Below, one piece after another: positions 37,006 through 59,257 of a stretch of DNA of 64,000 nucleotides. How positions within the stretch are numbered: position 1 is the first letter of the stretch; each line of letters begins with the position of its first letter. This DNA is from Methylobacter sp. KS41 (GTDB lineage Bacteria > Pseudomonadota > Gammaproteobacteria > Methylococcales > Methylomonadaceae), in contig PHSP01000003.1 in the NCBI GenBank assembly GCA_002862125.1, forward strand, positions 1,054,001-1,118,000, given 5' to 3'. The notes beneath the pieces were generated by a model. The model was not told the DNA's origin, did no database searches, and worked only from the letters and a program-made list of their open reading frames with translations. The position numbers and the translations under genes are program-made.

Positions 37006-37998
37006 TTAATGCTCGTCCAGCCATTCTTTCACTTCAAGAGGCGTCATTGCCGTTCCGTTCAGTTCCCGCATAAAAAAATCAAAGTAGCGCCGGCATTTTT
37101 CCAGAAAGCGCTCGAGGTCCGCATCGCTGCGCACGTAGGGCGTGCCGCCGGGCATAATCGAGGGTGAGTGGAAGCTGAACACGAACACCCTGACGCCGTC
37201 GGCCAGTAAGGCATGGGTGAGGCGGCGCATTTCCGGTTCGCTGTAATCCTCCGGCGAGAGCCGGATGCGTTCAAGCAGGCGCAGCCGGGCGACCGCGCCT
37301 GAAATACGCGCCTTTCGCAGCCAGGGACGCGTGAGCCGCCGGTAGAGCGGCGACCCGCCCGCTCTTAATCGCCCTACGAAGCCGCCGGAGCCAGGCAATC
37401 CGAGCAGGCGGCGGGACTGTCCAAACCAGAACGGGTCGCTGGTGTAGCCCGAGTAATCGGGGCCACCGTCGGCGCTGTAATCTATCGATGCCGCAGCGCT
37501 GATGTCGACTTCATAGCCTAGCGACTCAAGAATTCCGCCAGTGTTGGGTCCGAATCCATAACGGCCCGCGAGATAAGTCAGCGGAGGAGCTCCAAATGCA
37601 GCAGTGATCCGGCTGGTGAGCAGGCGGAGCTTTTCCTGTTCCAAAGCTTGCGGCAAGTTGCCCGGATACGAATTGCGGGCATTGAGCTCCTCTTCGAACG
37701 GAGGCGAGACCCACGGATGCAGATGCGCGCCGATCAGCGCTCGTCCGGCGTCTGCGTAAACCTTCAGCGGGCCGTACGCTTCGGCTTGCGACGCGACCGG
37801 ATAGTCGATGACGTAGTTCGGAACGATGCCGAACGCGTCGAAAACGCTCTGCGCCCGTTCAATGTGGCGCATGTGCGTGACGCCGGTGGCGTTGCGATCG
37901 TATGGCTTGCTCCAGTCGAATTCTTCCTCGGTATGAATAACCACGACCAGGACCGGCCGGGAGAAGGGGTCGATGTGGATGAGCTCGCGTTCGATCAC
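37006..37998 (-). CDS. Polysaccharide deacetylase-like (WalW type) protein
   Basis: A 330-residue protein with the NodB-like core expected of the WalW branch: LVVVIHTEEEFDWSKP (in place of the classical TFDD), GIVPNYVIDYPVA, GAHLHPWVSPPF, LAGRYGFGPNT and FSFHSPSIMPG. His and Asp/Glu positions fit a metal site, although the first Asp of the classical motif is Glu. The likely substrate is a surface glycan. It is the last gene of a GC-rich operon and overlaps the preceding GNAT-like gene by four bases. Confidence 0.78.
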   Translation of the reverse strand: MIERELIHIDPFSRPVLVVVIHTEEEFDWSKPYDRNATGVTHMRHIERAQSVFDAFGIVPNYVIDYPVASQAEAYGPLKVYADAGRALIGAHLHPWVSPPFEEELNARNSYPGNLPQALEQEKLRLLTSRITAAFGAPPLTYLAGRYGFGPNTGGILESLGYEVDISAAASIDYSADGGPDYSGYTSDPFWFGQSRRLLGLPGSGGFVGRLRAGGSPLYRRLTRPWLRKARISGAVARLRLLERIRLSPEDYSEPEMRRLTHALLADGVRVFVFSFHSPSIMPGGTPYVRSDADLERFLEKCRRYFDFFMRELNGTAMTPLEVKEWLDEH

Positions 37999-38852
37999 AG
38001 GTCCAGTCCCACGATTTCGGAATAAAGGTTGCTGATGTCGGCTTCGGCAAGCGTGTCGCTGCGGAATACCTTATTGCGAAATCCTGCGAGTTCTAAAGAA
38101 AGCACCGGCAGCCGGGGCAAGAGCCGGGATTCGACGCGCGTGTAGAAGCAAGCCTGCATCAACAAATGCGCGCCGGTTGCATTGCGGTAGCCGAGGAATA
38201 ATTCCGCGTCGCTGAAAGCCAGCACCATCGCCCCTGGCACGCCTTTCAGCCGGTCCTGCTTCCAGACAACGTGGCAGTATGCGCCGGGTCGTCCCACAGC
38301 GGCGTGCCGCAGCCAGGGCAGGCGCCGGTGATCGCGGAAGACCTTCGCATCCTCAGCGGCGAGGACGGCTTCGATGGCGTCATGACCGGTGATGACGCGT
38401 ACGCCGCGGAACGGGGAAAACGGCCATGGAAAATTGGGCCAGACCGCTTGGCGCTCGTTCATTGGCTTGAACTTGAGGAATTGCAATGTCTTCGACACGA
38501 CCTCGGTGGGCGTGAGATCGGTGAAATGGAAGCCGGGCTGCGACACGACCGCCATCGCGAGCCGCATGCTCTGCGCACGGTACTCCTCGAGCACGCACCA
38601 GCTGGTGATGTTGCAAAACCGCTCGGGCCGGCCGCGAATCATGCGCTCCGCGTAGATGGCGCCGATGCCGCCGACTACGCGTTCCTGGTCACGGATGAGA
38701 AAGCCGTTGTTGGGCTTGTCTATTCCCCAGTTCTGCAGGAAAGCCTCGGCCCATTGTCCGGCGCTTCGCGCGGAGCTAAGATGCTCGTTGAGGAATTGGC
38801 AGAATGCAGGCAGATCACTGTCCCGTATCGGTTCGAGCGTCGGCAGCGCCAT
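37995..38852 (-). CDS. GNAT-like acyltransferase
   Basis: A 285-residue protein. The N-terminal half resembles GNAT acetyltransferases (LIRDQERVVGGIGAIYAERMI, then NITSWCVLEEYRAQSMRLAMAVV). This gives the CoA or carrier-binding loop as EEYRAQSMRL, and the C-terminal half probably repeats the fold. The acyl donor could be the acyl carrier protein encoded just upstream. Position within an operon with a deacetylase suggests glycan acylation, which is inference. Confidence 0.65.
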   Translation of the reverse strand: MALPTLEPIRDSDLPAFCQFLNEHLSSARSAGQWAEAFLQNWGIDKPNNGFLIRDQERVVGGIGAIYAERMIRGRPERFCNITSWCVLEEYRAQSMRLAMAVVSQPGFHFTDLTPTEVVSKTLQFLKFKPMNERQAVWPNFPWPFSPFRGVRVITGHDAIEAVLAAEDAKVFRDHRRLPWLRHAAVGRPGAYCHVVWKQDRLKGVPGAMVLAFSDAELFLGYRNATGAHLLMQACFYTRVESRLLPRLPVLSLELAGFRNKVFRSDTLAEADISNLYSEIVGLDL

Positions 38853-38915
38853 GGCTTAGCTAGCCGTTCCGGGCAATAGCGTCAGGGACTTGTGAGGGCG
38901 GATATCCATGCCGGT

Positions 38916-39179
38916 TCAGCCTTTCCGGGAAAGCAAAAAATCCGCCATCGCGTTGATCGAGCCGAGGTTGTCGATGTTGATTTCTTCCTGGCTGATCGGG
39001 AAATCATAGGCCGCCTCGAACCAGACGACGAGCTCAAGAATTGCGTTGGAGTCGAGCAGGCCCGTCGCCGGCAGAATGTCGTCATCGGTGACTTCACTCG
39101 CATCCATGTCGAGCGCTTGCGCGAGTTCCACGACCTTGGCATGCAGTGCGGTTTTGATTTCGTTGCGGTTCAGGTTCAT
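38916..39179 (-). CDS. Acyl carrier protein
   Basis: An 87-residue acidic protein with the phosphopantetheine site LLDSNAILELV (Ser44) in the usual helix II context. ATGLLDS replaces the common LGxDS. Start at 39179, where the ATG shares one base with the stop of the E2-like gene. Not a fatty-acid-synthase AcpP by sequence; it belongs with specialised ACPs of secondary or glycan pathways. A 63-base gap separates it from the GNAT-like gene. Confidence 0.85.
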   Translation of the reverse strand: MNLNRNEIKTALHAKVVELAQALDMDASEVTDDDILPATGLLDSNAILELVVWFEAAYDFPISQEEINIDNLGSINAMADFLLSRKG

Positions 39180-40324
39180 CAATAAGTGCTCTCTGGATGG
39201 TATGTTCCGGTCATGCCGGGGATTAGGGGACGGGATAGCGCCAGCAGCACCTGCGTGACGTCGAAACCGGTTAGAACGCGGTGATCGTAGGTTGCGCCCA
39301 GCACGGCCTTGCCGGAGGTCTTCGGCGCGGCATGGGCGACGATTAGCGATGTCTGCGGCGGCAGAATCGGGATATGGCGGCTCACGTTCCAGCGCGCCAT
39401 GCTCGAGAATGACAATGTAGCGCCGGAGGCCTCCTGCGGCGGGAGCTTGTGCGCCATCGCGTGACGCTGGACCTCGCCGAGGGCGGCGATAAATTGTCCT
39501 GCGTCCATGTCCTGGGTTTCGCGCACGACTGTAAGATAGAGCATTTCGCCAACCTGGACCGTAAAACCAAGGTTTACCGGACGATATTGGAAGCGGCGGG
39601 CGTTGACGATCGTGGAATTGATCAGGGTCCGCTCGCGGGCGAGCGCCGCCAGCCGGAAGGCCATCAGCGGCAGCAGCGGAGAGAGCATGAGTTTCTGTTG
39701 CGTGGCGTAATGCGCGGCAAGCTCCTCCCACGGCTTCGGGTCATATTCGAGCTCCAGATATGCCGCCGCCGCATGATCCCGGTGCCATGTGACAGTGTGG
39801 AGCATGCCTGCGGCTTCCGCCGAAAGCTCCAGCAATTCGCCGGACACCGTGGGTGAATCTTCCGTCCGCGTACTCGGAGAAGGCAGGGCGGCCGCAGGGC
39901 CTGTCTTGCCGGTACGGGCCAGCCAGTCCTCAATATCGGCCGCCGTCAAACGTTCACCGCTAGCGGGGATACGCGCCGGATCAAGATTGAGCTCTTTCAG
40001 CATCGCTCGCGCCTTGGCGGTGGGCCGTCCGGCGGCATTCCGCGCCTCGGCGTCAGTAGAAATTACCTCAGGAACGGGTTCATCGGCTGCAGCGCCCAGC
40101 CAGAACATCACTGAGCCTACGCGGGCTTTCTGTTCCGGCGCGCAGTCTATCCTGAGCACGTAGCCGTCCTGCTCAACGGCAACGTCGATCAGGGATTTGT
40201 CCGTCTCGACGGTGCCGACGACGTCGCCGTTCTTTACGAAGTCGCCCTGTTTGACGTTGAGGCTGACGATTTGCACGAACTCGTCGTTTATATTCACACA
40301 AGGGACGGTTTGGGGAGAGGCCAT
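39179..40324 (-). CDS. 2-oxo acid dehydrogenase E2-like acyltransferase
   Basis: A 381-residue protein in classical E2 order. The lipoyl domain comes first (KNGDVVGTVETDKSLIDV, lipoylated Lys in ETDKS). Next is an E3-binding-like helix pair at about residues 105-135 (AKARAMLKELNLDPARIPASG). An acyltransferase domain ends the protein (TYDHRVLTGFDVTQVL). The catalytic motif is normally DHRxxDG; here the His is kept but the Asp is Thr. It may still move acyl groups, perhaps to the adjacent ACP. It starts nine bases after the E1 stop codon. No E3 gene is nearby. Confidence 0.85.
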   Translation of the reverse strand: MASPQTVPCVNINDEFVQIVSLNVKQGDFVKNGDVVGTVETDKSLIDVAVEQDGYVLRIDCAPEQKARVGSVMFWLGAAADEPVPEVISTDAEARNAAGRPTAKARAMLKELNLDPARIPASGERLTAADIEDWLARTGKTGPAAALPSPSTRTEDSPTVSGELLELSAEAAGMLHTVTWHRDHAAAAYLELEYDPKPWEELAAHYATQQKLMLSPLLPLMAFRLAALARERTLINSTIVNARRFQYRPVNLGFTVQVGEMLYLTVVRETQDMDAGQFIAALGEVQRHAMAHKLPPQEASGATLSFSSMARWNVSRHIPILPPQTSLIVAHAAPKTSGKAVLGATYDHRVLTGFDVTQVLLALSRPLIPGMTGTYHPESTY

Positions 40325-40333
40325 GGCTACCAG

Positions 40334-42385
40334 CTAGAATAGTTCTAAAACTTGTTCGACGACTGACTGCTCGTCTGGAAGGATGCTTCGCTCCAGGCTG
40401 CGGGCGGATGCGATAGGAATTGGAGGCGTGCCGATGCGCAGCAATTGTCCCTTGAAACCGGACTCAAGCATCGCGGCGGCGATTTCGGCGCTCACGCCAA
40501 ACTCGTGGTGCGATTCCTCGACGATGACAACACGCGAACGCATTGCAAGATGCCGGATCATCGATCCGCGCGGCAGCGGCGAGAGCAGTGACGGCGCGAC
40601 GATTTCGACGGCTAGTTCCTCTTCATCCTCGAGACGGCGCGCCGCCGCCTCCGCCACGGCAAGCATGCCTCCGTAGCTAACCAGCGTTACGTCGGGGTCG
40701 GTAGCGCCGCGCAGCAGCGTGGGAAAGAGGTGCGCCGCGACGTCGTCGTCTGCCGCAGGCAGCGTGAGGTAATCGGCAGGGTCTATTTTTTCGCCGTAGA
40801 GCAGCTTGTGCTCGAGGAAAAGCACCGGGTAGCGCCAGCGCAGAACCGCATCGGTCAGGAGTTCGCCGAGATTGTGACGATGGCTGCCGTAGACCACGGT
40901 CAGGCCCGGCACGGCGGTGAACAGGTGCTCGGGACTCTGGCTGTGCGTGGGTCCGTAGCCGCGCCGGCCGCCGCACGGCGTGCGGATGACCAGCGGCACC
41001 GCCACGTCGCGGAACATGCCCGGAAATTTGACCGCGTGATTGAAAAGCTGATCCATGCACAACGACAGGAAGTCTGCGAACATGACTTCCATGACCGGCA
41101 AATAGCCATCGAGAGACAAACCGATCGTAGCGCCGGTGATGCCCGCCTCGCTGATCGGCGTGGAGATTACCCGGCCCGGAAAACCGGTGGATAGGCCTTG
41201 CGTGACTTTGAATGCGCCGCCGTAGGGGTCGTGCAGATCCTCGCCGATCAAGAGCGTGCGCGAGTCGGTTTCCAGCAGGTGTCGAAGCGCCGAGTTGAGC
41301 GACTGGCGTACGGTGCTGCCGGCCGCCATGACCGGATAGCCGGGCAACGGCTGCTCGACGTGCAGGGTGAAAATGTGCGCAGGTGTTTCGTCAAGGGTCG
41401 CTTCGGGAGACGCGTTGGCGGTAAGGCGCACCGATTCAACGAATGCGCGGTTGTTCGCCTCGATAGTTTCACATGTGGCGGAGGGCAGCTGCCGCGCCAG
41501 CGCAGCTAACGGATCCCGTTCGCGAATAGTATCCAGCTCGTCCTGTCCGCGCAGATCGTCGCCCTTGCTGTGAGGGCCCATCCGCCGGGTGTCCAGCACC
41601 AGGAAGCCGGGACGGCGGCTTTCGCGCATCTCGCTTACTGCCGCCGCCACTTTCCGGCAAAAACCGGGGTCGTCGTCGGCGAAGCGCCAGGTGTGAAGAC
41701 CGAAGGCCGCGCCGCGGGCCTCGATGCCGCCGCCCAGCGTGTCGCGGCTGTCTGTCGTCTGCGCAATACCGTTGTTCTCGACGACGACGAGCAAGGGCGC
41801 TTTCCATACCGACGCGAGATTCATTGCTTCATAAAGCAGGCCCTGGCCGAGCGTGCCGTCGCCGATGATAGCCGCGACAATGCCGCCGCTGCCGCGAAGC
41901 TTGCGAGCCAGGGCGAGACCGGCGCCGATGCCCATCATTCCGCCCTGCACGCCATTGCTGTGGAAATGGCGATAGGCAAGATGCTGGCTGCCGCCCCAGC
42001 CGCCGCATACGCCCGCTTCGCGGCCCATGATCTCGGCGACCAGACCGGCGAAGTCGCCGGAGTAGGCAAGGAAATGGCCGTGATTGCGATGATTGGACAG
42101 GACGGCGTCTTCCGGATGATCCAGCGCACGTATGACCGAGATTGCGGTTAGCTCCTGTCCAAGACAGGTGTGCGTAGTGCCGGATACGAGGCCGCGCGAA
42201 AACTGCTCGAGAATCAGCTGTTCGGTCAGGCGGATCAGGTGGCCGAAGGCATACAGGTTTTCCGGATCGAGCCCGATTTGCGGTTTGCCGTGATTGTTCC
42301 GCGTGAAACGGAGCTGCGCCCAAGGCGTGGACTCGCCGGCGAGCGTTGCTTCGCGCGTGTTGATTTTCAGGGTTTCGCTCATCAT
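40334..42385 (-). CDS. Fused 2-oxo acid dehydrogenase E1 alpha-beta subunit
   Basis: A single chain joins E1 alpha and E1 beta. The alpha half has GQELTAISVIRAL, LSNHRNHGHFLAYSG, MGIGAGLALARKL and the thiamine diphosphate motif GDGTLGQGLLYEAMNLASVW...VVENN. The beta half starts near residue 350 with SLNSALRHLLE, GEDLHDPYGGAFKVTQGL, SEAGITGATIGLSLDGYLPV and VRTPCGGRRGYGPTHSQ. The true start is not certain: the frame opens at 42445 but an ATG pair at 42385/42382 fits better. It decarboxylates a 2-oxo acid onto lipoyl groups. It is the first gene of the GC-rich operon. Confidence 0.88.
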   Translation of the reverse strand: MMSETLKINTREATLAGESTPWAQLRFTRNNHGKPQIGLDPENLYAFGHLIRLTEQLILEQFSRGLVSGTTHTCLGQELTAISVIRALDHPEDAVLSNHRNHGHFLAYSGDFAGLVAEIMGREAGVCGGWGGSQHLAYRHFHSNGVQGGMMGIGAGLALARKLRGSGGIVAAIIGDGTLGQGLLYEAMNLASVWKAPLLVVVENNGIAQTTDSRDTLGGGIEARGAAFGLHTWRFADDDPGFCRKVAAAVSEMRESRRPGFLVLDTRRMGPHSKGDDLRGQDELDTIRERDPLAALARQLPSATCETIEANNRAFVESVRLTANASPEATLDETPAHIFTLHVEQPLPGYPVMAAGSTVRQSLNSALRHLLETDSRTLLIGEDLHDPYGGAFKVTQGLSTGFPGRVISTPISEAGITGATIGLSLDGYLPVMEVMFADFLSLCMDQLFNHAVKFPGMFRDVAVPLVIRTPCGGRRGYGPTHSQSPEHLFTAVPGLTVVYGSHRHNLGELLTDAVLRWRYPVLFLEHKLLYGEKIDPADYLTLPAADDDVAAHLFPTLLRGATDPDVTLVSYGGMLAVAEAAARRLEDEEELAVEIVAPSLLSPLPRGSMIRHLAMRSRVVIVEESHHEFGVSAEIAAAMLESGFKGQLLRIGTPPIPIASARSLERSILPDEQSVVEQVLELF

Positions 42386-42657
42386 GGGCTCTGCAATAAA
42401 CATGCGCATAATATACATCAACCAGCGCGGCTGAGCAAAAGGCATTTAACCGGCGAATACAGACTCCTAAGCTTTTGGATAATATTTTCCTGATGGCTTT
42501 GGGCCAGCCATTGTTGACTGTTTATTTTCAAAAAACCGGTAATCCGTTAATTTGTTGAAGTTTGTTGAATGCACAAATATGCCCGCTTTTTTATTTTGAA
42601 AATTTGACATTTTTTTGCAAGAGGTTATATAGAGATTTTATCCGGCAGGAGGATATC

Positions 42658-44025: not shown

Positions 44026-44601
44026 ATGGCTATTTCATTAACTAAAGGCGGCAACGTCAGTTTGTCGAAAACAGAACCCAGCCTGCAAAATGTGATCGTG
44101 GGCCTGGGATGGGATGCCAGACCCACGGCCGGCGCGGATTTTGATCTGGATGCCAGCGCTTTTATGGTCAAGGAAGACGGCAAGGTCAGGTCTGACAGTG
44201 ATTTCATTTTCTACAACCAGACTAAATCCGCCTGCGGTTCGGTCGAGCACACCGGCGATAACCGGACCGGCGCTGGCGACGGCGATGACGAAGTTGTCAT
44301 TGTTCTGCTTGATAAGGTCCCAATGGACATTCAACGGGTTGTTTTTTGCGTCACCATCCACGACGCCGGGATGCGCAAACAAAATTTCGGTCAGGTAAGC
44401 CATGCTTATGTCAGAGTCGTTAATAAAGACTCCGGCAACGAAGTCGCCCGGTATGATTTAAGCGAAGACGCATCCATTGAGACGGCAATGGTTTTCGGTG
44501 AAATTTACCGGCACGGCGGCGAATGGAAATTTAAAGCGGTGGGACAAGGGTACGCCGGCGGATTGGCTGCTTTAGCGAAGCAATACGGCATTAACGTTTA
44601 A
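44026..44601 (+). CDS. terD: TerD/TerE family calcium-binding stress protein (copy 1)
   Basis: A 191-residue TerD-fold protein: [31 protein letters not shown] and the calcium loop [13 protein letters not shown]. The C-terminal [23 protein letters not shown] is typical. TerD proteins bind calcium and occur in Ter clusters linked to tellurite, phage and general stress resistance. It starts the cluster; a close paralogue follows 40 bases later. Confidence 0.93.
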
Positions 44602-44641
44602 GCAAAAATATAAAAAACCTTAATAATAACAGGAGAGACTC

Positions 44642-45217
44642 ATGGCAATATCACTTAGTAAAGGCGGCAACGTAAACTTAAGCAAAGAAGCCCCCGGATT
44701 GAATAAAATCGTGGTGGGTTTGGGTTGGGATGCGCGCGCGACCGATGGCGCGGCATTTGATCTGGATGCCAGCGCATTTTTGGTTAAGCTGGATGGCAAA
44801 GTCCGCTCGGATAGCGATTTTTGCTTTTACAACAATAAAGTGGTTGCCGGCGGCGCGGTTCAGCATGCTGGCGACAATACAACCGGGGCAGGCGAGGGCG
44901 ATGATGAAACCATCAAGGTTGAATTAGCCAAGATTCCCGCTGACCTGGACAAGGTTGTTTTCGCGGTGACCATTCATGAAGCCGAAATCCGTAAACAAAA
45001 TTTCGGTCAGGTAAATCACGCATTTATCCGGGTTGTTAATGAGGAAGGCGGCCAGGAAATCGCCCGTTATGATCTCAGCGAAGATGCTTCAATCGAGACG
45101 GCGATGATCTTCGGCGAAATCTACCGCGTTGGCGCAGACTGGAAATTTAAAGCCGTTGGACAAGGTTTTGCGGGCGGTCTTGGGCCTCTGGCTTCGTCTT
45201 TCGGCGTTAGTGTTTGA
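44642..45217 (+). CDS. terD: TerD/TerE family calcium-binding stress protein (copy 2)
   Basis: A 191-residue paralogue of the preceding gene, with the same length and most blocks shared ([55 protein letters not shown]). The AGGAGAGA site precedes the ATG. The second loop differs (GEGDDE for GDGDDE). Tandem duplication is likely. Which copy corresponds to TerD and which to TerE is not decided. Confidence 0.92.
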
Positions 45218-45321
45218 ACCGTTAACGCATTGAAATAACTCAGGCGTCCGCTCCTTACCCTTACACTATCTGGAAGGCGGGCTTTTCAACATTTGCGCAT
45301 AATTTCCGGGGCATTTAATTT

Positions 45322-45915
45322 ATGGCTATTAATTTACAAAAAGGGCAAAAAATCTCGTTATCCAAAGAATCCGGCGGCGCGTTAAGCAAGGTTGTCATGG
45401 GCTTGGGCTGGGATGCTAAAAAAAGCGGCGCGGGTCTCTTGAAAGGCCTGTTTGGCGGAGGCGACAGCAGCTCTATTGATCTGGATGCGTCCTGCGTATT
45501 GTTTAACGAAAAGAATGATGTGCTTGATACCGTCTATTTCGGGCAATTGAAAAGCCGCGACGGCAGTATCGTGCATACGGGCGATAACCGCACCGGCGAT
45601 GGCGATGGCGATGATGAACAGATTATTGTCGATTTGGATAAAATTCCCGAGACCGTCAAAGCATTGGTATTTACAGTGAGCTCCTATACCGGTCAAACTT
45701 TTGAAACCGTTGAAAATGCCTATTGCCGCATTGTCGATAACAGCAATAAAAATGAAATCGCCCGTTATACCTTAAGCGCGCAGGGTTCGCATACCGCTCA
45801 AATTATGGCCAAGCTGTACCGCCATAACGGCGAATGGAAAATGCATGCAATTGGTGAAAACGGCACCGGCCGGACCATTGCAAATTTGCTGCCGCAAATT
45901 GTCGCTCATCTGTAA
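45322..45915 (+). CDS. terZ: TerZ-like TerD-family protein
   Basis: A 197-residue third TerD-fold protein, more diverged. It has an insert GAGLLKGLFGGGDSSSIDLD at residues about 34-53, and the calcium loop GDNRTGDGDGDDE. The C-terminus (IAAK-type IMAKLYRHNGEWKMHAIGE) differs from copies 1-2. The TerZ assignment rests on the insert. Its stop codon overlaps the ATG of the ATP-grasp gene by one base (TAATG). Confidence 0.8.
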   Translation: MAINLQKGQKISLSKESGGALSKVVMGLGWDAKKSGAGLLKGLFGGGDSSSIDLDASCVLFNEKNDVLDTVYFGQLKSRDGSIVHTGDNRTGDGDGDDEQIIVDLDKIPETVKALVFTVSSYTGQTFETVENAYCRIVDNSNKNEIARYTLSAQGSHTAQIMAKLYRHNGEWKMHAIGENGTGRTIANLLPQIVAHL

Positions 45916-46934
45916 TGCGGATTTGGTTTAACAAAACATTTTCAACCATTAGCGCTGTATTTAGAAATCTTCGTCAGCCGGCTCCGGCTGGCGAAGTCAC
46001 CCTGATTTGCACCCACACACACTCAGCGGCAGCGGCTTTTTTGGCCGCCGACGAAAGCTATCTTGAGCCTGCCGGATTAACGGGACTGGCCTATCTTGAA
46101 TGGTGCGTGATTTTTTGTCACCAACATAATATTCAGCTATTTTGGCCCGGCAAGGAAGCTCCACTCATTAGTCAATATCATTCCTTGTTCCGGGCGGTTG
46201 GCACGCAAGTCATGTCGGTTGCCGGTCATGACACCCTCGCGCTGTTGCATGACAAGGCGGTTTTTTACAGCGGCTTAAGTCCAGATGTGGCGCAAACCAT
46301 GGATTTTATTTCGGTAAATGACCGCGATGAGTTTGACGCAGCGGTCAGTAAATTATCGGCAAAACACGAAAGGCTGTGCGTAAAACCCGCTGTGTCGGTA
46401 TTTGGCTTGGGCTTCCGGATTTTAGACACGCACTGCGACAGCATCACCCAATTGCTCAACGGCGTTGAGTACCGGATTCCGCTGCAAGAGTTGCGGCAAG
46501 GCATGAATAATACGCCGCAATTCAACACGCTGCTGGTTATGGAGCATCTGGGAGGACCTGAATGGAGCGTCGATTGTGCCGGACGGCACGGTGAATTGCT
46601 GTGCGCCGTGCAACGGAAAAAATCGCAGCTGGCCGGCCACGGACAAAGCATAGATAATAATGCCGAAATCCATGACATGGCTATCCGGTTAACCGGGCAG
46701 TACCGGCTAAACGGTTTATTCAATATCCAGTTCAAGGAAGGCGTGAATGGGCCGCGATTATTGGAAATCAACCCGCGCCCTTCGGGCGGTTTCGGGATGG
46801 CGTGTTTATCGGGCGCTAATTTGGCGCATATCGCCTTGCAGAGTATCAGGGGTAAAACTTTTCAGCCGCCGGTTATTCGTTACGGGCTTAAGGTGACTGA
46901 GATTAATACGCCGGTGATTTTGCAAGAGGCGTAA
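45915..46934 (+). CDS. ATP-grasp ligase of the Ter cluster
   Basis: A 339-residue protein. The C-terminal half carries an ATP-grasp signature (LLVMEHLGGPEWSVDCAG, LFNIQFKEG and RLLEINPRPSGGFGMACLSGANLA). ATP-grasp enzymes join carboxylates to amines via acyl phosphate. In Ter-linked biosynthetic clusters an ATP-grasp gene accompanies PRTases and an aldolase. Translationally coupled to the TerZ-like gene; the AAA gene starts 34 bases after its stop. Confidence 0.85.
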   Translation: MRIWFNKTFSTISAVFRNLRQPAPAGEVTLICTHTHSAAAAFLAADESYLEPAGLTGLAYLEWCVIFCHQHNIQLFWPGKEAPLISQYHSLFRAVGTQVMSVAGHDTLALLHDKAVFYSGLSPDVAQTMDFISVNDRDEFDAAVSKLSAKHERLCVKPAVSVFGLGFRILDTHCDSITQLLNGVEYRIPLQELRQGMNNTPQFNTLLVMEHLGGPEWSVDCAGRHGELLCAVQRKKSQLAGHGQSIDNNAEIHDMAIRLTGQYRLNGLFNIQFKEGVNGPRLLEINPRPSGGFGMACLSGANLAHIALQSIRGKTFQPPVIRYGLKVTEINTPVILQEA

Positions 46935-46967
46935 TGAGTAAACGGCTACAAAAACGGAAGGTAAAGC

Positions 46968-48239
46968 ATGGCTAAAATCGAAGGCATCAGAGTAAAAAAT
47001 TTTCGTGCATTAAAAGATATCACGCTTGGTAGATTGTGGAATCAGCAACAATCAGAACCACTCACGCCAATGACTGTCGTTATAGGCAAGAATGGTGTTG
47101 GGAAAAGCACTTTGTTTGATGTCTTCGGTTTTCTTGCTGACGCGCTTAAATTTGGCGTTGAGGAAGCCTGTGATTTACGCGGCCGCGGAGGTTTCGAAAA
47201 AATACGCTCTCAAGGTCAAACCGGGTCAATTGAGTTTGACGTTTATTACAAGGAAGACGGTAACGCTCGCCCGATTACCTATGAAATGTCTATTAATGTG
47301 GATACTGCTGGCCGACCCTTCGTACAAAAAGAACGTCTTCGTCAACGACGTAAAAATCAGAGGCGCGGATGGCCTTTTTCGTTCTTGGTACTCAATGACG
47401 GTAAAGGTGTTGTTTGGAAGGGCGAAGGTAAAAATATTGATGAAGATAAAGAGTTTGATATTGATGATTTTCTTGAGTTACTTTTAAAAGAAGAGAGTAA
47501 AGAAACGGAAGTAGTAGAGCTTGCGGATAAAAGAAAGCTTGGCATTGCTACGCTCGGTTCTTTAAAGCAACATCCAAGGATTTCGGCTTTTCGACAGTTT
47601 ATAGAGGGTTGGTATCTTAGTTATTTCACGCCAAATTCTGCTAGAAGTCTCCCTCTTGCCGGTCCTCAAAAACATCTGAATATTCTTGGCGATAATATTG
47701 GTAACGTTGTGCAGTTTATGGAGCGCGAACATCCGGCCCGTTTTCAGAAGGTGCTTGATCGTATTGCAAAAAAAATTCCTGGTATTAATAAAATTGATAC
47801 AGAAAAAACTGCTGATGGTCGATTACTTTTGCGTTTTAACGATAAGGGTTTTCATGATCCATTCTATGCGCAACAAATGTCTGACGGCACATTAAAGGTT
47901 TTTGCTTATTTACTACTTCTGGAAGACCCTACGCCGCCCCCATTTCTATGTATTGAAGAGCCGGAAAACGGCTTATATCATAAACTTCTGGAAACTCTGG
48001 CTAGGGAGTTTCGCAACCATGCAACGGGAAGAAAAGACGGCTCTCAGGTTTTTATCACTACCCATCAGCCTTATTTTGTTGATGCGCTTGAACCGAATGA
48101 AGTCTGGATTCTGGAAAAAGGTACGAATGGTTTTGCAACTATTCGCCGTGCCAGCGATGATGAGCTAGTAAAAAACATGGTCGCCGAGGGATTGCCATTA
48201 GGCGGGCTTTGGTATAGCGATTATCTGGATGCAAGATAA
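46968..48239 (+). CDS. AAA (AAA_15/21, OLD-like) ATPase
   Basis: A 423-residue SMC/ABC-type ATPase. Walker A VVIGKNGVGKSTLFDVFG is at about residues 36-53. A signature-like YAQQMSDGTLKVFAYLLLL occurs near residue 305, followed by Walker B FLCIEEPENGLYH and the His switch FITTHQPYFVDAL. Such ATPases pair with TOPRIM or other nuclease partners in defence systems. It overlaps the next gene by 11 bases. The pair is AT-richer than the surrounding Ter genes and interrupts the usual cluster, so it was probably acquired separately. Confidence 0.88.
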   Translation: MAKIEGIRVKNFRALKDITLGRLWNQQQSEPLTPMTVVIGKNGVGKSTLFDVFGFLADALKFGVEEACDLRGRGGFEKIRSQGQTGSIEFDVYYKEDGNARPITYEMSINVDTAGRPFVQKERLRQRRKNQRRGWPFSFLVLNDGKGVVWKGEGKNIDEDKEFDIDDFLELLLKEESKETEVVELADKRKLGIATLGSLKQHPRISAFRQFIEGWYLSYFTPNSARSLPLAGPQKHLNILGDNIGNVVQFMEREHPARFQKVLDRIAKKIPGINKIDTEKTADGRLLLRFNDKGFHDPFYAQQMSDGTLKVFAYLLLLEDPTPPPFLCIEEPENGLYHKLLETLAREFRNHATGRKDGSQVFITTHQPYFVDALEPNEVWILEKGTNGFATIRRASDDELVKNMVAEGLPLGGLWYSDYLDAR

Positions 48240-48891
48240 AACTATGCATTTTGAAATACTCGTGGAAGACCAGTCAGGCAAAAAAACGTTAGATATTCTT
48301 GTACCCAAAATCATTGGCGATACACATACCTTCGACGTTAAATCTTACAAAGGAGTCGGTCGAATTCCTGCAAAGATGAACTCGAGTGTAGATGCAAGCA
48401 AGCGTATTTTATTGGCTAACTTACCAAGATTATTAGCTGGCTATGGAAAATCATGGCAGGGATACCCAGCGGTGGTTATTATTATTTGTGATCTTGATAA
48501 CAAATGCATGAACAGCTTTCGGAGTGAACTCATTGAGCTGTTAAATACTTGCAACCCTAGTCCAAAAACCCGTTTTTGCATTGCTATTGAAGAAGGTGAA
48601 GCCTGGTTTCTTGGCGATATTCCAGCAATAAAACAAGCCTACCCAAGAGCTAAAGATGCTGTGCTAAAGACTTATGTTAGCGATTCAATTTGCGGCACAT
48701 GGGAAAAACTCGCCGATGCCGTTTATATAGGCGGCTCTCAAGCTCTTTCAAGCCTGGGATGGCACGTTGTAGGGGCTGAAAAATCTGCGTGGTCAGAGAA
48801 AATTACGCCTCACATGGACTTGGAAAATAATACATCGCCTAGCTTTAATTATTTCCTGGGGAAGCTCCGAGAACTGGCAGAGGTCGGTTGA
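48229..48891 (+). CDS. DUF4276-like (TOPRIM-type) partner of the AAA ATPase
   Basis: A 220-residue protein (205-215 if it starts at the internal ATG). TOPRIM-like acidic positions occur in FEILVEDQSGKKTLDILVPKI (Glu), VVIIICDLDNK (DxD) and FCIAIEEGEAWFLGD. These match the DUF4276 pattern of proteins encoded next to AAA ATPases. Expected role: a nuclease or RNA-cleaving effector controlled by the ATPase. Both the family and the function are inferred from motifs and position. Confidence 0.7.
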   Translation: MQDKTMHFEILVEDQSGKKTLDILVPKIIGDTHTFDVKSYKGVGRIPAKMNSSVDASKRILLANLPRLLAGYGKSWQGYPAVVIIICDLDNKCMNSFRSELIELLNTCNPSPKTRFCIAIEEGEAWFLGDIPAIKQAYPRAKDAVLKTYVSDSICGTWEKLADAVYIGGSQALSSLGWHVVGAEKSAWSEKITPHMDLENNTSPSFNYFLGKLRELAEVG

Positions 48892-49068: not shown

Positions 49069-49401
49069 ATGCCTTTAATTAAAATAAATTCATTCGTTGT
49101 TAAATACATCCGTTTCATCGAGATGGTCGGCGTTCTCATGCGGATTTTCAGTTTCTCGTTGGTCAGTTGGATGGGCCCGGAAAGTCCGTTTATGTTTGTA
49201 TGGGCCTTTAATACCACAGACGCGGTGATACTTTCCTGGTGTTCCATACTTAAAAAGGATAATGCTTATACCTTGCTGAACGTTTTTTGGATAATGGTGG
49301 GCGTTGTCGGAATGCTTAGAGCCAGCGCTTTTTCATTCATGGACTTTAAAGTTTCTGTGTTACATTTCCTGGTGCAATTAGCCACATTTTTCAGCCAATA
49401 A
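49069..49401 (+). CDS. Small membrane protein of the Ter cluster
   Basis: A 110-residue protein with two or three membrane segments (IEMVGVLMRIFSFSLVSWMG, FMFVWAFNTTDAVILSW and LLNVFWIMVGVVGMLRA). No clear ribosome binding site. Its family was not recognised. It lies 177 bases after the TOPRIM-like gene and 30 bases before the PRTase-TRSP gene, so it is likely co-transcribed with the latter. Confidence 0.55.
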   Translation: MPLIKINSFVVKYIRFIEMVGVLMRIFSFSLVSWMGPESPFMFVWAFNTTDAVILSWCSILKKDNAYTLLNVFWIMVGVVGMLRASAFSFMDFKVSVLHFLVQLATFFSQ

Positions 49402-49431: not shown

Positions 49432-50631
49432 ATGCAAAAAACAGTAACAATCAAATTGGACACCGGAACGCTTCAGCTCGATTTGGAGCCCGGAAACATT
49501 CCTCTTAAGCGTTTGCTGGGTTTTGCTGCGCGGGTAAGCAGTAAGCGTAAATTTTTACTGGTCAGCAAGGTATTGGGCAAGCATTATCCGGTATCGCCCA
49601 AAACCATGAGCTGGTCCTATCGCGCCTTGGCAAGAGCCGTATTAAAGAAAGGGGCGGGGCGGTCTTCACTGTGGATAGGCATGGCGGAGACCGCAACGGG
49701 TCTGGGTTACGGGGTGTTCGAGTCGGCTTGCCATGGCGGATTGCAAGATGCCTTGTTTTTACAAACTACCCGTTATCATCTGTCCGGCATCGATCGGCTT
49801 GAATTTGAAGAAGCTCATAGTCATGCTACTGATTTTTTTCTGTATTATCCTGCTAATCCGGATTACCGGAAGCAGTTTTTAAATGCAGAAACCCTGGTGT
49901 TAATCGATGATGAAATCAGCACGGGAAAAACCTTTTTACGCCTGATTAAAGCCTATCAGTCTGTGAATCCAAGGTTGCGTAAAGTGTTTATCGTTAGCCT
50001 GGTGAATTTCGCGCATCCTGATGACCGCGCCGCGCTTGAATTACAGGCGGGTGTTGCGGTGGAGTGGGTTTGTTTAAGACAGGGCATATTGCATTTTGAA
50101 GACAGTCAAAATGCAGCCATTGATAAAATTAGCGTTAATGTTTCCGGCAATGGGGCCTGTAAAAAGCATTTAATGGCCTGGCCCGGGCGTCTTGGCATGG
50201 ATGCCCCGGTTCGTTTAGAAAAGGATGTGGTGGAACAGTTAAGCAAGTGCGGTTTTAGCATCGAGTCCGGCGATCTCCGTCCCATTCTGGTGCTGGGCAC
50301 GGGTGAGTGCAACGCTCCGGCTTATATGCTGGGGCGGGCGCTGGAGCAGGAAGGGTTAAAAGTAAAAGTGCAAAGCACGACACGTTCGCCGATTCACCAG
50401 GGCAACGATATTGCCCTGGCGTGCCGGTTTGAAGATAACTACGAAGACGGTATTCCCAATTTTATTTACAATTTGAACCCTGACGATTACCGGGAAATAA
50501 TTCTGTGTCATGAAACGCCTCCGGGCGAGCCGCTAACCGGCCGGCTGAACGCATGGCAAGCCATTAGCGCGCGTTTTGAACTTCAACAGCATAACTCAAA
50601 TCATGCAAAGCTTCATTTTTTTAGACCTTGA
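49432..50631 (+). CDS. Phosphoribosyltransferase-TRSP domain protein (Ter biosynthetic module)
   Basis: A 399-residue fusion. The N-terminal PRTase domain (PRTase_2) has the PRPP loop LVLIDDEISTGKTFLRLI at about residues 159-176. The C-terminal TRSP domain is named for the conserved TTRSPIHQGNDIALACRFEDNY segment. Its role in the Ter-linked pathway is proposed to be base-ribose phosphate transfer for a nucleoside-like metabolite. It overlaps the HAD gene by 56 bases if that starts at 50576; the later start at 50603 is likely. Confidence 0.9.
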   Translation: MQKTVTIKLDTGTLQLDLEPGNIPLKRLLGFAARVSSKRKFLLVSKVLGKHYPVSPKTMSWSYRALARAVLKKGAGRSSLWIGMAETATGLGYGVFESACHGGLQDALFLQTTRYHLSGIDRLEFEEAHSHATDFFLYYPANPDYRKQFLNAETLVLIDDEISTGKTFLRLIKAYQSVNPRLRKVFIVSLVNFAHPDDRAALELQAGVAVEWVCLRQGILHFEDSQNAAIDKISVNVSGNGACKKHLMAWPGRLGMDAPVRLEKDVVEQLSKCGFSIESGDLRPILVLGTGECNAPAYMLGRALEQEGLKVKVQSTTRSPIHQGNDIALACRFEDNYEDGIPNFIYNLNPDDYREIILCHETPPGEPLTGRLNAWQAISARFELQQHNSNHAKLHFFRP

Positions 50632-51358
50632 CGACACGCTGTTCCAGACCTTGAGAAAATGCGCTGGCGCTGATGATCCCAGGCTGCAAGCACGGGCTTT
50701 TTTGCCTGACGGCACGCCTAATTCCTTCGCTACGCACAAGCAGCAATGGTTATGGCATTGGCTGTCACTTGGCTTCAAAATCGTGCCGGTCACGGGGCGT
50801 GATGTTCATGCCTTTGAGCGAGTTGCTCTGCCTTTTCAGGAAGAGGTGGTATTGAATCATGGCGCTGTAATTCTGGATAAGCGACGTAATATTGATAACG
50901 CATGGATGGATGGAATGATGCATGCTTTACCCGAATATCATGAAAAATTGCTGGATCTGTGGGCGGAAGTTGAGTCGTTTTGCCGGCGTCATAACGGTTT
51001 TAAACCCCGGCTGGTGCATGATTTTGATATAACATGGTATGGCGTGATCAAGCATGCGGACGGTACTGAAACAAGCCTGAGATTGTTGCTGGACAGCGTT
51101 ATCCAAGCGCATCCGCATATTCTTGACGGCAAATTATACTGGCATCTGAACGGCAACAATCTTGCGGTATTGCCGGAAATTATTAACAAAGAAAGCGCGG
51201 TAAGTTATTTGATTGACGGCTACAAACAACAGCATCCGGAATTATTGACATTCGGTGCGGGAGACAGTAAATCCGATGCGCCGTTTATGGGCCTGTGTGA
51301 TTACGCCCTAATTCCAAAAAATACGCAATTGTCTCAATCGCTGATATTCGCCGGATGA
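50576..51358 (+). CDS. HAD-superfamily phosphatase of the Ter cluster
   Basis: A 260-residue HAD hydrolase. Motif I is FIFLDLDDTLFQT, motif II lies near PVTGRDVHAF, and motif III/IV is TFGAGDSKSDAPFMGLCDYALIP. The C2-type cap resembles sucrose-phosphatase or mannosyl-3-phosphoglycerate phosphatase. It would remove phosphate from a nucleotide-like intermediate. The ATG at about 50603 (MQSFIFLDLDD) is a good alternative start. Its stop overlaps the next gene by four bases. Confidence 0.85.
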   Translation: MNFNSITQIMQSFIFLDLDDTLFQTLRKCAGADDPRLQARAFLPDGTPNSFATHKQQWLWHWLSLGFKIVPVTGRDVHAFERVALPFQEEVVLNHGAVILDKRRNIDNAWMDGMMHALPEYHEKLLDLWAEVESFCRRHNGFKPRLVHDFDITWYGVIKHADGTETSLRLLLDSVIQAHPHILDGKLYWHLNGNNLAVLPEIINKESAVSYLIDGYKQQHPELLTFGAGDSKSDAPFMGLCDYALIPKNTQLSQSLIFAG

Positions 51359-52542
51359 AAAGTATGACTCCTTTCACCGGCAATGCTGTCAACTTAGGCG
51401 GTGTAAAGCCCTTGCCGGAGGGAGCGCGCGGGCGTGCTCTTGATTTTAATGCATTGCCTTTCACAGGCAGTTACACGTTGAACGATGTGCGGTTTTTGTT
51501 AAAACCGGTGACCTTGGCGGATACGCCGGTTCATATCAAGGAGATGCTGATTCAGTCCGGTAAAAAGCATTATTCTGAAATGCTGACCCACGAGTCCTTG
51601 CCGCCGGATGACTATTTGCAGCTATTTTACCGCGCCATGTCCCTGAATCAGGATAAAATGGCGGAACATCTTTGGCTGCTGGCGAAAGGTATTTTGTCTA
51701 CCCGTGCGCAAGGCATAACTCTGGTATCATTAGTCCGCGCGGGAACGCCGGTGGGCGTATTGCTCAAGCATGTTTTAAAACGTTATTTCAATACCAGTGC
51801 TGAACATTATTCCATTTCCATCCTGCGGGATGCCGGCCTGGACCTAAATGCACTGCGCTATATTTTGCAAAAGCACCCGCCGGAATCCCTGGTGTTTGTG
51901 GATGGCTGGACAGGAAAGGGAGTTATAGCGCGGCAGTTGGCAGCCAGTTTACAGGCTTTTGCGCTTAGTGACGGCATTTCCATACCAGCCGAGTTGTACG
52001 TGATGACCGATTTGTCAGGTTGGGCGGCGGTTGCGGCTTCATCGGAAGATTATTTAATTCCATCCTGCATTCTGAATGCTACGATATCAGGGCTGGTTAG
52101 CCGGTCCGTTTATGACAAAAACACGGCTAGCCCCGCTGATTTCCATGGCTGTCTTTATTATGAGCAGTTTGCCAGTGACGACTTATCTAATTATTTTATC
52201 GATGCGATACTTGCGAGAGTGGATATGATAGGAGCTGAATTTAGAGATACACTCAGAATACTCCCCCGAAATCGTCAACAATTACAAACACAATCCCGGC
52301 GGTTTCTGGAATGGATTGCCGGACAATACGGAATTACCCGGCACAACTATATCAAGTCAGGTATTGGCGAGGCGACGCGTGTTCTGCTGCGCCGGGAAGC
52401 GCGGCTTTTGCTGTTGCAGGATTTGGATTCGGAAGCAACGCTGCATTTACGCTGGCTGGCTGAGTTCAAGTCAATTCCAATAGAGGTTTTTAAGGATTTA
52501 CCGTATCGTGCGGCAGCGTTAATCAAAGAGCTTGAATTATGA
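51355..52542 (+). CDS. StiP-type phosphoribosyltransferase-like protein (PRTase_1)
   Basis: A 395-residue protein annotated in relatives as 'cysteine protease StiP', PF11202-like. It has GSYTLNDVRFLLKPVTLADT, KKHYSEMLTHESLPPDDYLQLF and a PRTase-type loop ESLVFVDGWTGKGVIARQL at about residues 179-197. In Ter-linked operons it goes with the PRTase-TRSP, HAD and aldolase genes, overlapping both neighbours by four bases. The PRTase fold is family knowledge; a protease activity is doubtful. Confidence 0.85.
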   Translation: MKSMTPFTGNAVNLGGVKPLPEGARGRALDFNALPFTGSYTLNDVRFLLKPVTLADTPVHIKEMLIQSGKKHYSEMLTHESLPPDDYLQLFYRAMSLNQDKMAEHLWLLAKGILSTRAQGITLVSLVRAGTPVGVLLKHVLKRYFNTSAEHYSISILRDAGLDLNALRYILQKHPPESLVFVDGWTGKGVIARQLAASLQAFALSDGISIPAELYVMTDLSGWAAVAASSEDYLIPSCILNATISGLVSRSVYDKNTASPADFHGCLYYEQFASDDLSNYFIDAILARVDMIGAEFRDTLRILPRNRQQLQTQSRRFLEWIAGQYGITRHNYIKSGIGEATRVLLRREARLLLLQDLDSEATLHLRWLAEFKSIPIEVFKDLPYRAAALIKELEL

Positions 52543-53474
52543 ACAAAATGTTAAAGTTGTTTTCGCCCTGGTGTTTGGGCGCTCCGCTTTATATGCCTGG
52601 AAATCGCCGCGATCTTATGGAAATTGCCAATGGCGAGAAGCATTCCCTGTTGCGCTCAATGATTTTCTGTACCGAGGATGCCGTGTCGAGCTCCGATGTG
52701 GCCAGTTGCGTGCGCCATATCGGCTTATGCTTGCAAGGCTTCCGGGATTCTCCCAAGCGATTCCGGTTTATCCGGGCCAGAAATCCGGATATATTGTCCC
52801 GGTTGCTGGATCTTCCCGATATTGAAAAAGTGGATGGCTTTGTTCTGCCGAAATTCAACCAAGACGTGTTTCATGCCTATTTTGATCAATTGCAGGGTAC
52901 GCCATTCAAGGTCATGCCCACTCTTGAAACCAAAGAGGTTTTTGATTTTAACGCAATGAGTGAGTTACGGCAGGGTTTATTGCAGGATGATATTGCCGGG
53001 CGGGTCCTGATGCTTAGAATTGGCGGGAACGACCTGATGAATCTTTTAGGTATCCGCAGACCGCGGTCTTCCACGATTTATGAAACGCCGCTAGGCGGTG
53101 TGATCTCGCAACTGGTGACTATTTTCAGGCCTTACGGATTTTCGCTGTCCGCGCCGGTGTTTGAATATCTGGATGATTCAGATACGTTGCAAAAAGAAAT
53201 GAAGCTGGATTTGGCCTTTGGTTTAACGGGTAAAGCCGCCATTCATCCAGCTCAAGTACCGGCTATTGAATCCGCGTATGCCGTTGATGCGGAGGACTAC
53301 GAGATGGCGCTCAGTCTGAGCGACAGACAAGCCCCGGCGGTCTTTAAAATGCACAATGCAATGTGCGAAGTGGCTACCCATCAGCAATGGGCGGAAAATA
53401 TCATAAACAGGCAAATGTGTTATGGCGTCAAAGACGGCTTATTAACGAAAGAATATGCCGGGTCGTCAGTTTAA
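52539..53474 (+). CDS. HpcH/HpaI aldolase/citrate lyase-like C-C lyase of the Ter cluster
   Basis: A 311-residue TIM-barrel lyase. Features include RFIRARNPDILSRLLDLPDIEKVDGFVLPKF and KVMPTLETKEVFDF (metal-ligand Glu), LMLRIGGNDLMNLLG and GLTGKAAIHPAQVPAIESAY (the GKxxIHPxQ motif of CitE-like enzymes). It belongs to the four-gene biosynthetic unit of Ter clusters. The substrate is unknown. It overlaps the previous gene by four bases. TerB follows after about 90 bases. Confidence 0.88.
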   Translation: MNKMLKLFSPWCLGAPLYMPGNRRDLMEIANGEKHSLLRSMIFCTEDAVSSSDVASCVRHIGLCLQGFRDSPKRFRFIRARNPDILSRLLDLPDIEKVDGFVLPKFNQDVFHAYFDQLQGTPFKVMPTLETKEVFDFNAMSELRQGLLQDDIAGRVLMLRIGGNDLMNLLGIRRPRSSTIYETPLGGVISQLVTIFRPYGFSLSAPVFEYLDDSDTLQKEMKLDLAFGLTGKAAIHPAQVPAIESAYAVDAEDYEMALSLSDRQAPAVFKMHNAMCEVATHQQWAENIINRQMCYGVKDGLLTKEYAGSSV

Positions 53475-53561: not shown

Positions 53562-54014
53562 ATGAGTTTCGACAGTTTTCTTAGCCAACTAAAAACCAAG
53601 GCCAATGAATTAAAAACCGAGGCCTTAAAATTTAAAAACAAGGATTTTCTGAATGCAGCGATGGCGGGTTCAGCCCTGGTTGCAATGGCGGACGGCAGCA
53701 TCAGTTCCGAAGAAAAACAAAAAATGATCAAATTCATCGAAAGCAATGATGCGCTGTCGATTTTTACCACCAGCGATGTAATCAAAGCCTTTCAGGATTT
53801 TGTCGGTCAACTGGAGTTTGATAAAGACATAGGCGAAGCCAAGGCTTATCAGGCAATAGGCAAAATGAAGTCTAACTCTGAAGCTTCGCGCCTGCTGGTT
53901 CGCATGATTATCTCCATCGCCTCGTCAGATGGTCTTTTTGATAATGATGAAAAAAAGGTAGCCGTTAAAATAGCCAAGGAACTAATGCTTGATCCGTCTG
54001 AATTTGAGCTGTAA
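53562..54014 (+). CDS. terB: TerB tellurite resistance protein
   Basis: A 150-residue all-helical protein with two acidic metal-binding helices (LVAMADGSISSEEKQKMIKFIE and IISIASSDGLFDNDEKKVAVKIAKEL). It is typical TerB. An AGGAGAG site precedes the ATG. It ends the Ter cluster. TerA, TerC and TerF were not seen in the window. Confidence 0.93.
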   Translation: MSFDSFLSQLKTKANELKTEALKFKNKDFLNAAMAGSALVAMADGSISSEEKQKMIKFIESNDALSIFTTSDVIKAFQDFVGQLEFDKDIGEAKAYQAIGKMKSNSEASRLLVRMIISIASSDGLFDNDEKKVAVKIAKELMLDPSEFEL

Positions 54015-58880: not shown

Positions 58881-59189
58881 ATGAAGAGGCAGATAATGAG
58901 CGAAAGCAAACGGAAAATTTTTACAGGCACGCAAAAAGCCAAGATTGCGCTGGAGGCGGTGAAGGGCACTAAAACAGTCAATGAGATCGCACAGGAGTTC
59001 GGAGTCCATCCGACCCAAGTGACGCAATGGAAGAAGGAATTGCTTGCCAATGCAGGCAGTTTATTTGAAGGCAAGCGTGGCCCTAAACCGGTCAATGCCC
59101 AGAGTGACCCAGACCGGTTGTACGCCAAGATCGGGCAACTCAACATGGAACTGGATTGGCTTAAAAAAAAGTCTGGACTCAGCCTGTAG
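58881..59189 (+). CDS. IS3 family transposase OrfA (helix-turn-helix)
   Basis: A 102-residue protein with an IS3 OrfA helix-turn-helix (FTGTQKAKIALEAVKGTKTVNEIAQEFGVHPTQVTQWKKE) and a C-terminal leucine-zipper part. Near the end (WLKKKSG) a run of A forms a slippery site; a -1 frameshift there would produce the OrfAB transposase. Frameshifting is the usual mechanism in this family. Confidence 0.92.
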   Translation: MKRQIMSESKRKIFTGTQKAKIALEAVKGTKTVNEIAQEFGVHPTQVTQWKKELLANAGSLFEGKRGPKPVNAQSDPDRLYAKIGQLNMELDWLKKKSGLSL

Positions 59190-59257
59190 TTGAGCGGCAG
59201 AAGTGGATAGAGCCAGGTGGATTACTTGCCCTATCCACGCAATGCAAGCTTCTCGCG

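Follow-up and report, generated by a model that had tools for sequence, protein, structure and literature searches.

What is a pair of ATPase and DUF4276 genes doing inside a Ter biosynthetic cluster, and does it belong to the pathway that surrounds it? In the window (the whole 64,000-nucleotide stretch of DNA analysed here), the preliminary description had placed two overlapping genes with Walker A/B motifs between an ATP-grasp and a PRTase-TRSP gene, and had proposed a defence module either parked in the Ter locus or cooperating with it. Open reading frames and conserved ATPase motifs agreed on two such genes at the positions listed, and Pfam placed them as described, with ATPgrasp_Ter upstream and PRTase_2-TRSP downstream:

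44026-45915, plus strand: three TerD genes, upstream in the same cluster (Pfam)
45915-46934, plus strand: ATPgrasp_Ter gene, the left anchor of the slot (Pfam, genome comparison)
46935-46967, plus strand: 33-bp leader from the ATP-grasp stop to the ATPase start, with a ribosome-binding-like GGAAGG
46968-48239, plus strand: HEC-01A-type ABC/AAA_21 ATPase, 423 aa (ORF, Pfam, PADLOC, motifs)
48244-48891 (ORF caller start 48229), plus strand: HEC-01B-type DUF4276 protein, probable TOPRIM-like nuclease (Pfam, PADLOC, alignment)
49069-49401, plus strand: ORF of 110 aa downstream of the pair and upstream of the PRTase gene, no Pfam match
49432-50631, plus strand: PRTase_2-TRSP gene, the right anchor of the slot (Pfam)
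50606-53474, plus strand: HAD, StiP-PELOTA and C-C lyase genes of the Ter biosynthetic set (Pfam)
53562-54014, plus strand: TerB gene

Searches of PADLOC-DB matched the ATPase to HEC-01A (PDLC04182, E 3.3e-198, residues 1-422) and its DUF4276 partner to HEC-01B (PDLC04205, E 5.8e-96, residues 6-215). Judged by these protein matches, the pair is HEC-01, already catalogued in PADLOC as a candidate defence pair. (In one other model pair the PADLOC labels are apparently swapped, PDLC04144 'HEC-01B' matching the ATPase and PDLC04143 'HEC-01A' the DUF4276 protein.) Against Pfam, the ATPase matched AAA_21 (E 8.5e-49) and resembled RecF/RecN/SMC, and the second gene matched DUF4276 only, with 31.5 bits at a cut-off of 30.2. 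Across 16 aligned sequences, G40, N42, G45, K46 and S47 of the ATPase motif GKNGVGKST are invariant, with further conservation at S305, D306 and T308 of SDGT, E330 and E331 of CIEEPEN, and H366; we take these to be, respectively, the Walker A, signature-like and Walker B motifs and the switch histidine, a predicted set that is a complete ABC-type signature. The overlap of the two genes holds for the ORF caller's start at 48229 but is doubtful, as alignments with most relatives begin only at the Met at 48244, 4 bp past the ATPase stop. The pair is AT-richer than its neighbours, as first described, with third-position GC (GC3) of 0.337 for the ATPase and 0.375 for the DUF4276 gene versus 0.49-0.57 for the Ter neighbours (three TerD, ATP-grasp, PRTase, HAD, StiP and lyase; TerB 0.464).

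At 33 bp, the leader leaves too little room for a usual promoter, and by eye similar leaders stand before several further copies in Ter clusters and before at least one copy outside Ter (L124). Promoter-like sites (21 versus 16.1 ± 4.1 in shuffled sequence) and terminator-like sites (14 versus 13.8) were near shuffle level, and co-transcription of the pair with the Ter operon appears likely. The 110-aa ORF has, by eye, the look of a membrane protein; several relatives have it ahead of their PRTase gene, some of them carrying the pair and others lacking it. Two other places in the window also stand out: positions 37006-42445 (~5 kb; GC 0.60-0.64 versus ~0.49 around), which encode on the minus strand a fused E1 dehydrogenase (703 aa), a lipoyl/2-oxoacid acyltransferase and a phosphopantetheine-binding protein, along with two proteins without a Pfam match at E ≤ 1e-4, and look like an acquired acyl-chemistry island; and positions 58881-60106, where two adjacent ORFs have, by reading, the appearance of an IS3-type transposase pair.

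The DUF4276 protein had been called TOPRIM-like, and its acidic residues and predicted fold fit that name. TOPRIM domains carry acidic residues after strand 1 and at the end of strand 3; E8, D83, D85, E117, E119 and D125 are invariant in 47 sequences, and in an AlphaFold2 model built from these 47 (pLDDT 88.6; order b-a-b-a-b-a-b) E8 is predicted just past strand 1 and D83/D85 at and just past the end of strand 3. Two Foldseek searches with two AlphaFold2 models returned no solved-structure relative at E ≤ 0.001, and a PDB sequence search yielded nothing useful. A profile comparison with OLD proteins of the same bacterial family aligned 24 columns at the first motif with a probability of 33% (2% with a narrower alignment), and comparison with DUF4435 gave 0.1%, a weak test in that the DUF4435 alignment contained truncated frames. 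Because Foldseek gave no match and the OLD comparison aligned the first motif only, we go no further than to infer a probable TOPRIM-like nuclease, compatible with the motifs and the model.

Among known systems, the closest is HEC-01 itself. HEC denotes an Hma-embedded candidate, and several HECs, HEC-06 among them, are reported as antiviral in assays in the accessible part of PMC12988326; in the accessible parts of the literature on HEC-01/DUF4276, HEC-01 is listed as predicted only and we found no phage assay. The present pair shares with HEC-01 its two adjacent genes and near end-to-end model matches, but it is embedded in a slot of a Ter cluster that is shared with other modules, rather than in an Hma system: none of the seven flanking proteins scanned against PADLOC matched Hma, the flanks being Ter genes. 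Embedding in Hma is the context of discovery and no requirement for later HEC-01 copies. The ATPase is also homologous to the ATPase domain of OLD/GajA (hhalign probability 99.3, E 6e-20), and the first acidic motif of the DUF4276 protein resembles that of OLD over the 24 columns noted above, whereas OLD/GajA is a single polypeptide and two ORFs are present here. In PARIS (AriA-AriB), AriB is a DUF4435 protein, in contrast to the DUF4276 partner here. The two-gene ATPase layout is the same, the ATPase and TOPRIM part of PARIS being encoded by two genes according to the accessible part of PMC10568477, and the ATPase matches the AriA model PDLC02980 (E 6e-45), which has the same length as Pfam AAA_21. 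The ATPase also matches mad3 of MADS (E 1.2e-24), but its 101.5 bits are far below the NCBIfam cut-off of 420, and none of the seven flanking proteins scanned had a mad match.

We then assessed where relatives of the pair occur, wide occurrence outside Ter loci with no enrichment having been named in the preliminary description as contrary to its proposal and occurrence inside other Ter clusters as favourable; the outcome was split. Among the best 80 of at least 550 GTDB relatives (tblastn), a DUF4276 match was present in 75 and the ATPase stood among Ter genes in three, all titled Methylococcaceae or Methylobacter; for the other 77, tblastn showed no Ter gene in the DNA covered, numbers that fall short of a census given that part of the contigs are short and that tblastn can overlook distant Ter genes. 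Within the same bacterial family (201 genomes), the ATPase matched 44 genomes at E ≤ 1e-20 and the ATP-grasp gene 77. The close ATPase lineage occurs in 18 of the 201, 13 of them also with the ATP-grasp gene, and in ten (10/18, or 10/13 of those with both genes) the ATPase lies behind ATP-grasp on the same strand (G000, G004, G050, G071, G097, G115, G120, G146, G188 and G198), nine of these with 24-41 bp between the matches and G071 with 239 bp from the last matched piece of a broken ATP-grasp gene. A sister lineage, ~40% identical, adjoins ATP-grasp in none of its 26 genomes, including the 15 with an ATP-grasp gene (10/13 versus 0/15, Fisher P = 2.2e-5, for draft contigs and related genomes). 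The pair is thus common away from Ter loci, but in this family it is clearly concentrated at one slot. Of 78 upstream neighbours examined among relatives, 58 share the strand of the ATPase (30 of them no more than 100 bp away), as do 44 of 65 downstream neighbours. Because such same-strand neighbours are usual for HEC-01 in general, codirectional placement with Ter is weak evidence for a tie.

Two further kinds of placement were seen in the family. In two other genera (L152 and L126), the pair lies behind an ABC-transporter permease gene, with a transporter ATPase downstream by eye, a second recurrent operon place that is apparently inside a transporter operon (L152:5329-8621, L126:6092-9435). 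G000 carries, besides its Ter copy, a distant AAA-DUF4276 pair away from Ter (G000:C3:804192-805900, L127), with an ATPase 40-44% identical.

Some relatives reside on mobile elements. Among 210 plasmid records matching the ATPase, only two reached at least 60% identity: an 81%-identical relative that follows the type IV secretion genes of a conjugative plasmid, and a 74.5%-identical relative on a plasmid record, in a prophage region where an antitermination gene flanks it on one side and lysozyme/lysis genes on the other. One phage record matched the DUF4276 protein. A 64%-identical relative (L330:10001-11883) has a replication-nicking protein on one side and the portal gene on the other, in a phage contig that, by gene content, looks P2-like, and the replication-portal interval of P2 is described as an antiviral/defence hotspot in the accessible part of Rousset et al. 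(PMC9122126).

To characterize the place that the pair occupies in the Ter cluster, the Ter regions of ATP-grasp genomes were collected and the window's Ter genes mapped onto them, giving 50 clusters (window included) with the ATP-grasp and then the PRTase gene in order on the stretch. Left out were 24 further ATP-grasp loci whose stretch shows no PRTase gene after ATP-grasp (including G198 and G188, cut contigs that carry the ATPase), the remote ATP-grasp matches L146 and L147, and G118, a short ATP-grasp fragment. HEC-01 of the close lineage occupied 8 of the 50 slots (window, L070, L080, L082, L096, L121, L122 and L148) and nine more had a gap of more than 700 bp, for 17 filled slots of 0.9-3.8 kb. 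The guests were varied: a second HEC-01 lineage in G024/L111 (PDLC04175, E 5e-137, and PDLC04188, E 6e-71) and, in tandem behind the first, in G115/L121; a PtuA-like ATPase with a PIN-domain protein in G088/L099 (L099:3159-4753); an ORF whose end is PDC-S68-like, together with two ParE-type toxins, in G070/L098; a HigB toxin and an HTH gene besides HEC-01 in G004/L070; a short Mrr_N-like fragment in G049/L065 (21.2 bits, below the cut-off of 29.5); and, alone in five slots (L075, L077, L078, L079 and L089), a 274-275-aa ORF that in the one scanned (L075) was AIM24, to our knowledge not a known defence gene. The identified guests run on the operon strand, and defence or toxin-antitoxin guests were found in 12 of the 50 clusters (11 without the Mrr_N fragment), that is, in 12 of the 17 filled slots. 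Guest-free slots with a gap of 151-700 bp were common (13/49).

A phylum-wide ATPgrasp_Ter search found matches in 44 of 398 genomes at E ≤ 1e-10, with only the window, G577, G534, G574 and G222 under 1e-38, and the family of G577 (f9, another gammaproteobacterial family) plus G534 served as a control, with 31 clusters from 30 genomes (two from G769); G222, from yet another family and with a different gene order (L254), was left out. In this control family the slot was empty in all 31 clusters, with gaps of 43-240 bp. The two families differed in defence-type guests (12/50 versus 0/31, Fisher P = 0.0025, or 0.0053 with 11) and in guests of any kind (17/50 versus 0/31, P = 1.2e-4), these P values being only descriptive, as they ignore relatedness. 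Inspection of the slot junctions by eye revealed no obvious target duplication, and no recombinase was among the slot ORFs scanned with Pfam. The best reading of the ATP-grasp-PRTase interval is a small defence slot refilled repeatedly by this bacterial family. A second insert-taking place in the Ter cluster is the HAD-StiP interval (L111, L118), which contains a metallo-beta-lactamase-fold protein in G024 and a methyltransferase with a transposase-like ORF (below cut-off) in G124.

In the accessible parts of PMC10250203 and PMC9122126, core defence hotspots (Pseudomonas cDHS1/2; P2/P4) have fixed core anchors, varied defence content and no tie to one particular mobile element. The Ter slot is similar in all three respects: its fixed anchors, ATP-grasp and PRTase, are shared by the 50 family clusters and the 31 of the control family, and several unrelated systems occur at one site (two HEC-01 lineages, AAA-PIN, toxin-antitoxin and the sub-threshold Mrr_N fragment). 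It differs in its small size, its position inside a biosynthetic operon with codirectional guests, and its being filled in a minority of clusters, with defence-type guests in 12 of 50.

Because the pair is HEC-01 and the same slot elsewhere holds the pair or other defence or toxin-antitoxin modules, the view that the Ter locus has a defence module parked in it is well supported. With its identity, gene order, foreign composition, repeated slot filling and relatives on mobile elements as observed, we read the pair as a defence module of the split ATPase-nuclease type that is mobile and is carried by the Ter operon as a guest in its defence slot, with a probability of about three in four; its nuclease activity and anti-phage function are candidate properties. 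In such a module, the ABC-type ATPase would work with a separately encoded DUF4276 protein, most likely the nuclease subunit, much like a split OLD/PARIS-type effector. The ATPase would keep the nuclease inactive until a phage- or plasmid-derived trigger was sensed, on which the nuclease would be released or positioned and would cut nucleic acid, stopping the infection at the sacrifice of the cell. Foreign to the Ter pathway and with no promoter of its own, the module would be expressed from the Ter operon.

A different possibility is that the pair takes part in the Ter response itself, with a nucleoside-like signal or modifier from the Ter enzymes licensing or restraining the ATPase-nuclease in one defence circuit. 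Ter is proposed to produce a signal derived from a nucleoside or nucleotide and to contribute to phage resistance (accessible part of PMC7824862), the ten codirectional copies lie behind ATP-grasp, nine of them at 24-41 bp, and ATPase-nuclease modules repeatedly fill the same slot, all of which would suit such a circuit. However, no Ter gene was found in the DNA covered for 77 of the best 80 of at least 550 relatives, the close-lineage pair is present in only 8 of the 50 family clusters with both anchors, the slot is empty in all 31 clusters of the control family, and unrelated toxin-antitoxin genes occupy the same place. Cooperation with Ter through a shared metabolite, as the preliminary description had entertained, thus found no direct support and, though possible, seems to us unlikely.

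Whether the module arrived once or repeatedly bears on another alternative, namely that the slot is merely a tolerant place in an operon, where the pair sits by chance and descent and defence genes are not favoured. A quick ATPase tree was built from 93 rows (10 Ter), leaving out L154, L156, L164 and L219 (duplicates of included genomes) and G198 (a short fragment). On this tree, the label 'Ter' changed five times, at least four of these forced by well-supported branches, and a single Ter clade was rejected (p-AU = 1.7e-5). One clade comprised 16 rows (ten Ter, six non-Ter), drawn from the same family and a Methylobacter, with the family members G084 and G098 falling outside; because these 16 rows form one clade, a family-specific ATPase lineage likely circulates. 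On an ATP-grasp tree of 73 rows, nine of them occupied (L148, a broken gene, and short rows left out), slot occupancy changed seven times and was scattered, with the caveat that occupancy counts are non-independent samples and that tree changes may mix gains and losses. Partner types also switch. The DUF4276 proteins fall into two types ~45% identical to each other (G000, G071, G097, G004 and G115 versus G120, G146 and G050), at odds with the ATP-grasp and PRTase relationships, which place G097 with G120 and G115 with G050; for example, between G120 and G097, ATP-grasp is 83% identical and the ATPase 70%, and their DUF4276 proteins are of the two types (the G097 copy broken). This disagreement between ATPase and host-gene relationships, the shared strand of the identified guests and the defence or toxin-antitoxin genes in 12 of 17 filled slots all stand against a merely tolerant place. 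The five slots holding AIM24 alone, the common guest-free gaps of 151-700 bp and the two family relatives in the second operon kind behind a permease gene would be expected of one, and we give it a low probability.

The pair might instead be a toxin-antitoxin or housekeeping DNA-repair module with no anti-phage role. The DUF4276 gene is broken or shortened next to an intact ATPase in G097 (Ter) and in G065 and G098 (both non-Ter; loci L082, L124 and L125), as expected of a toxic subunit, and the resemblance of the ATPase to RecF/RecN/SMC would fit repair. The distribution in the family is patchy, however, its relatives on mobile elements include one at a P2-type phage hotspot, one in a prophage region and one on a conjugative plasmid, and both proteins match defence models; we hold this account to be just as doubtful as a merely tolerant slot. 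Two simpler accounts were rejected: a single insertion inherited vertically, on the strength of the ATPase tree, the ATP-grasp tree and the switches of partner type, and a core Ter component, on the lack of the pair in 42 of the 50 family clusters and in all 31 clusters of the control family.

Read as a mobile defence module and operon guest, the pair ties ATPase-nuclease defence modules, in a concrete and testable physical way, to the Ter pathway, which is proposed to act in phage resistance by an unproven mechanism. If the 'guilt-by-embedding' reasoning from which the HECs take their name is applied here, the presence of defence modules within Ter operons hints at a defence role for Ter as well, and the contents of the ATP-grasp-PRTase interval offer a simple route to module discovery. 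A bolder extension, to which we give little credence at present, is that the Ter operon of these methanotroph-family bacteria may act as a defence platform whose effector slot has interchangeable contents, in which a nucleotide-like signal from the Ter enzymes would be joined by guest modules between the ATP-grasp and PRTase genes (the two HEC-01 lineages and AAA-PIN) serving as swappable effectors or back-ups under the same control.
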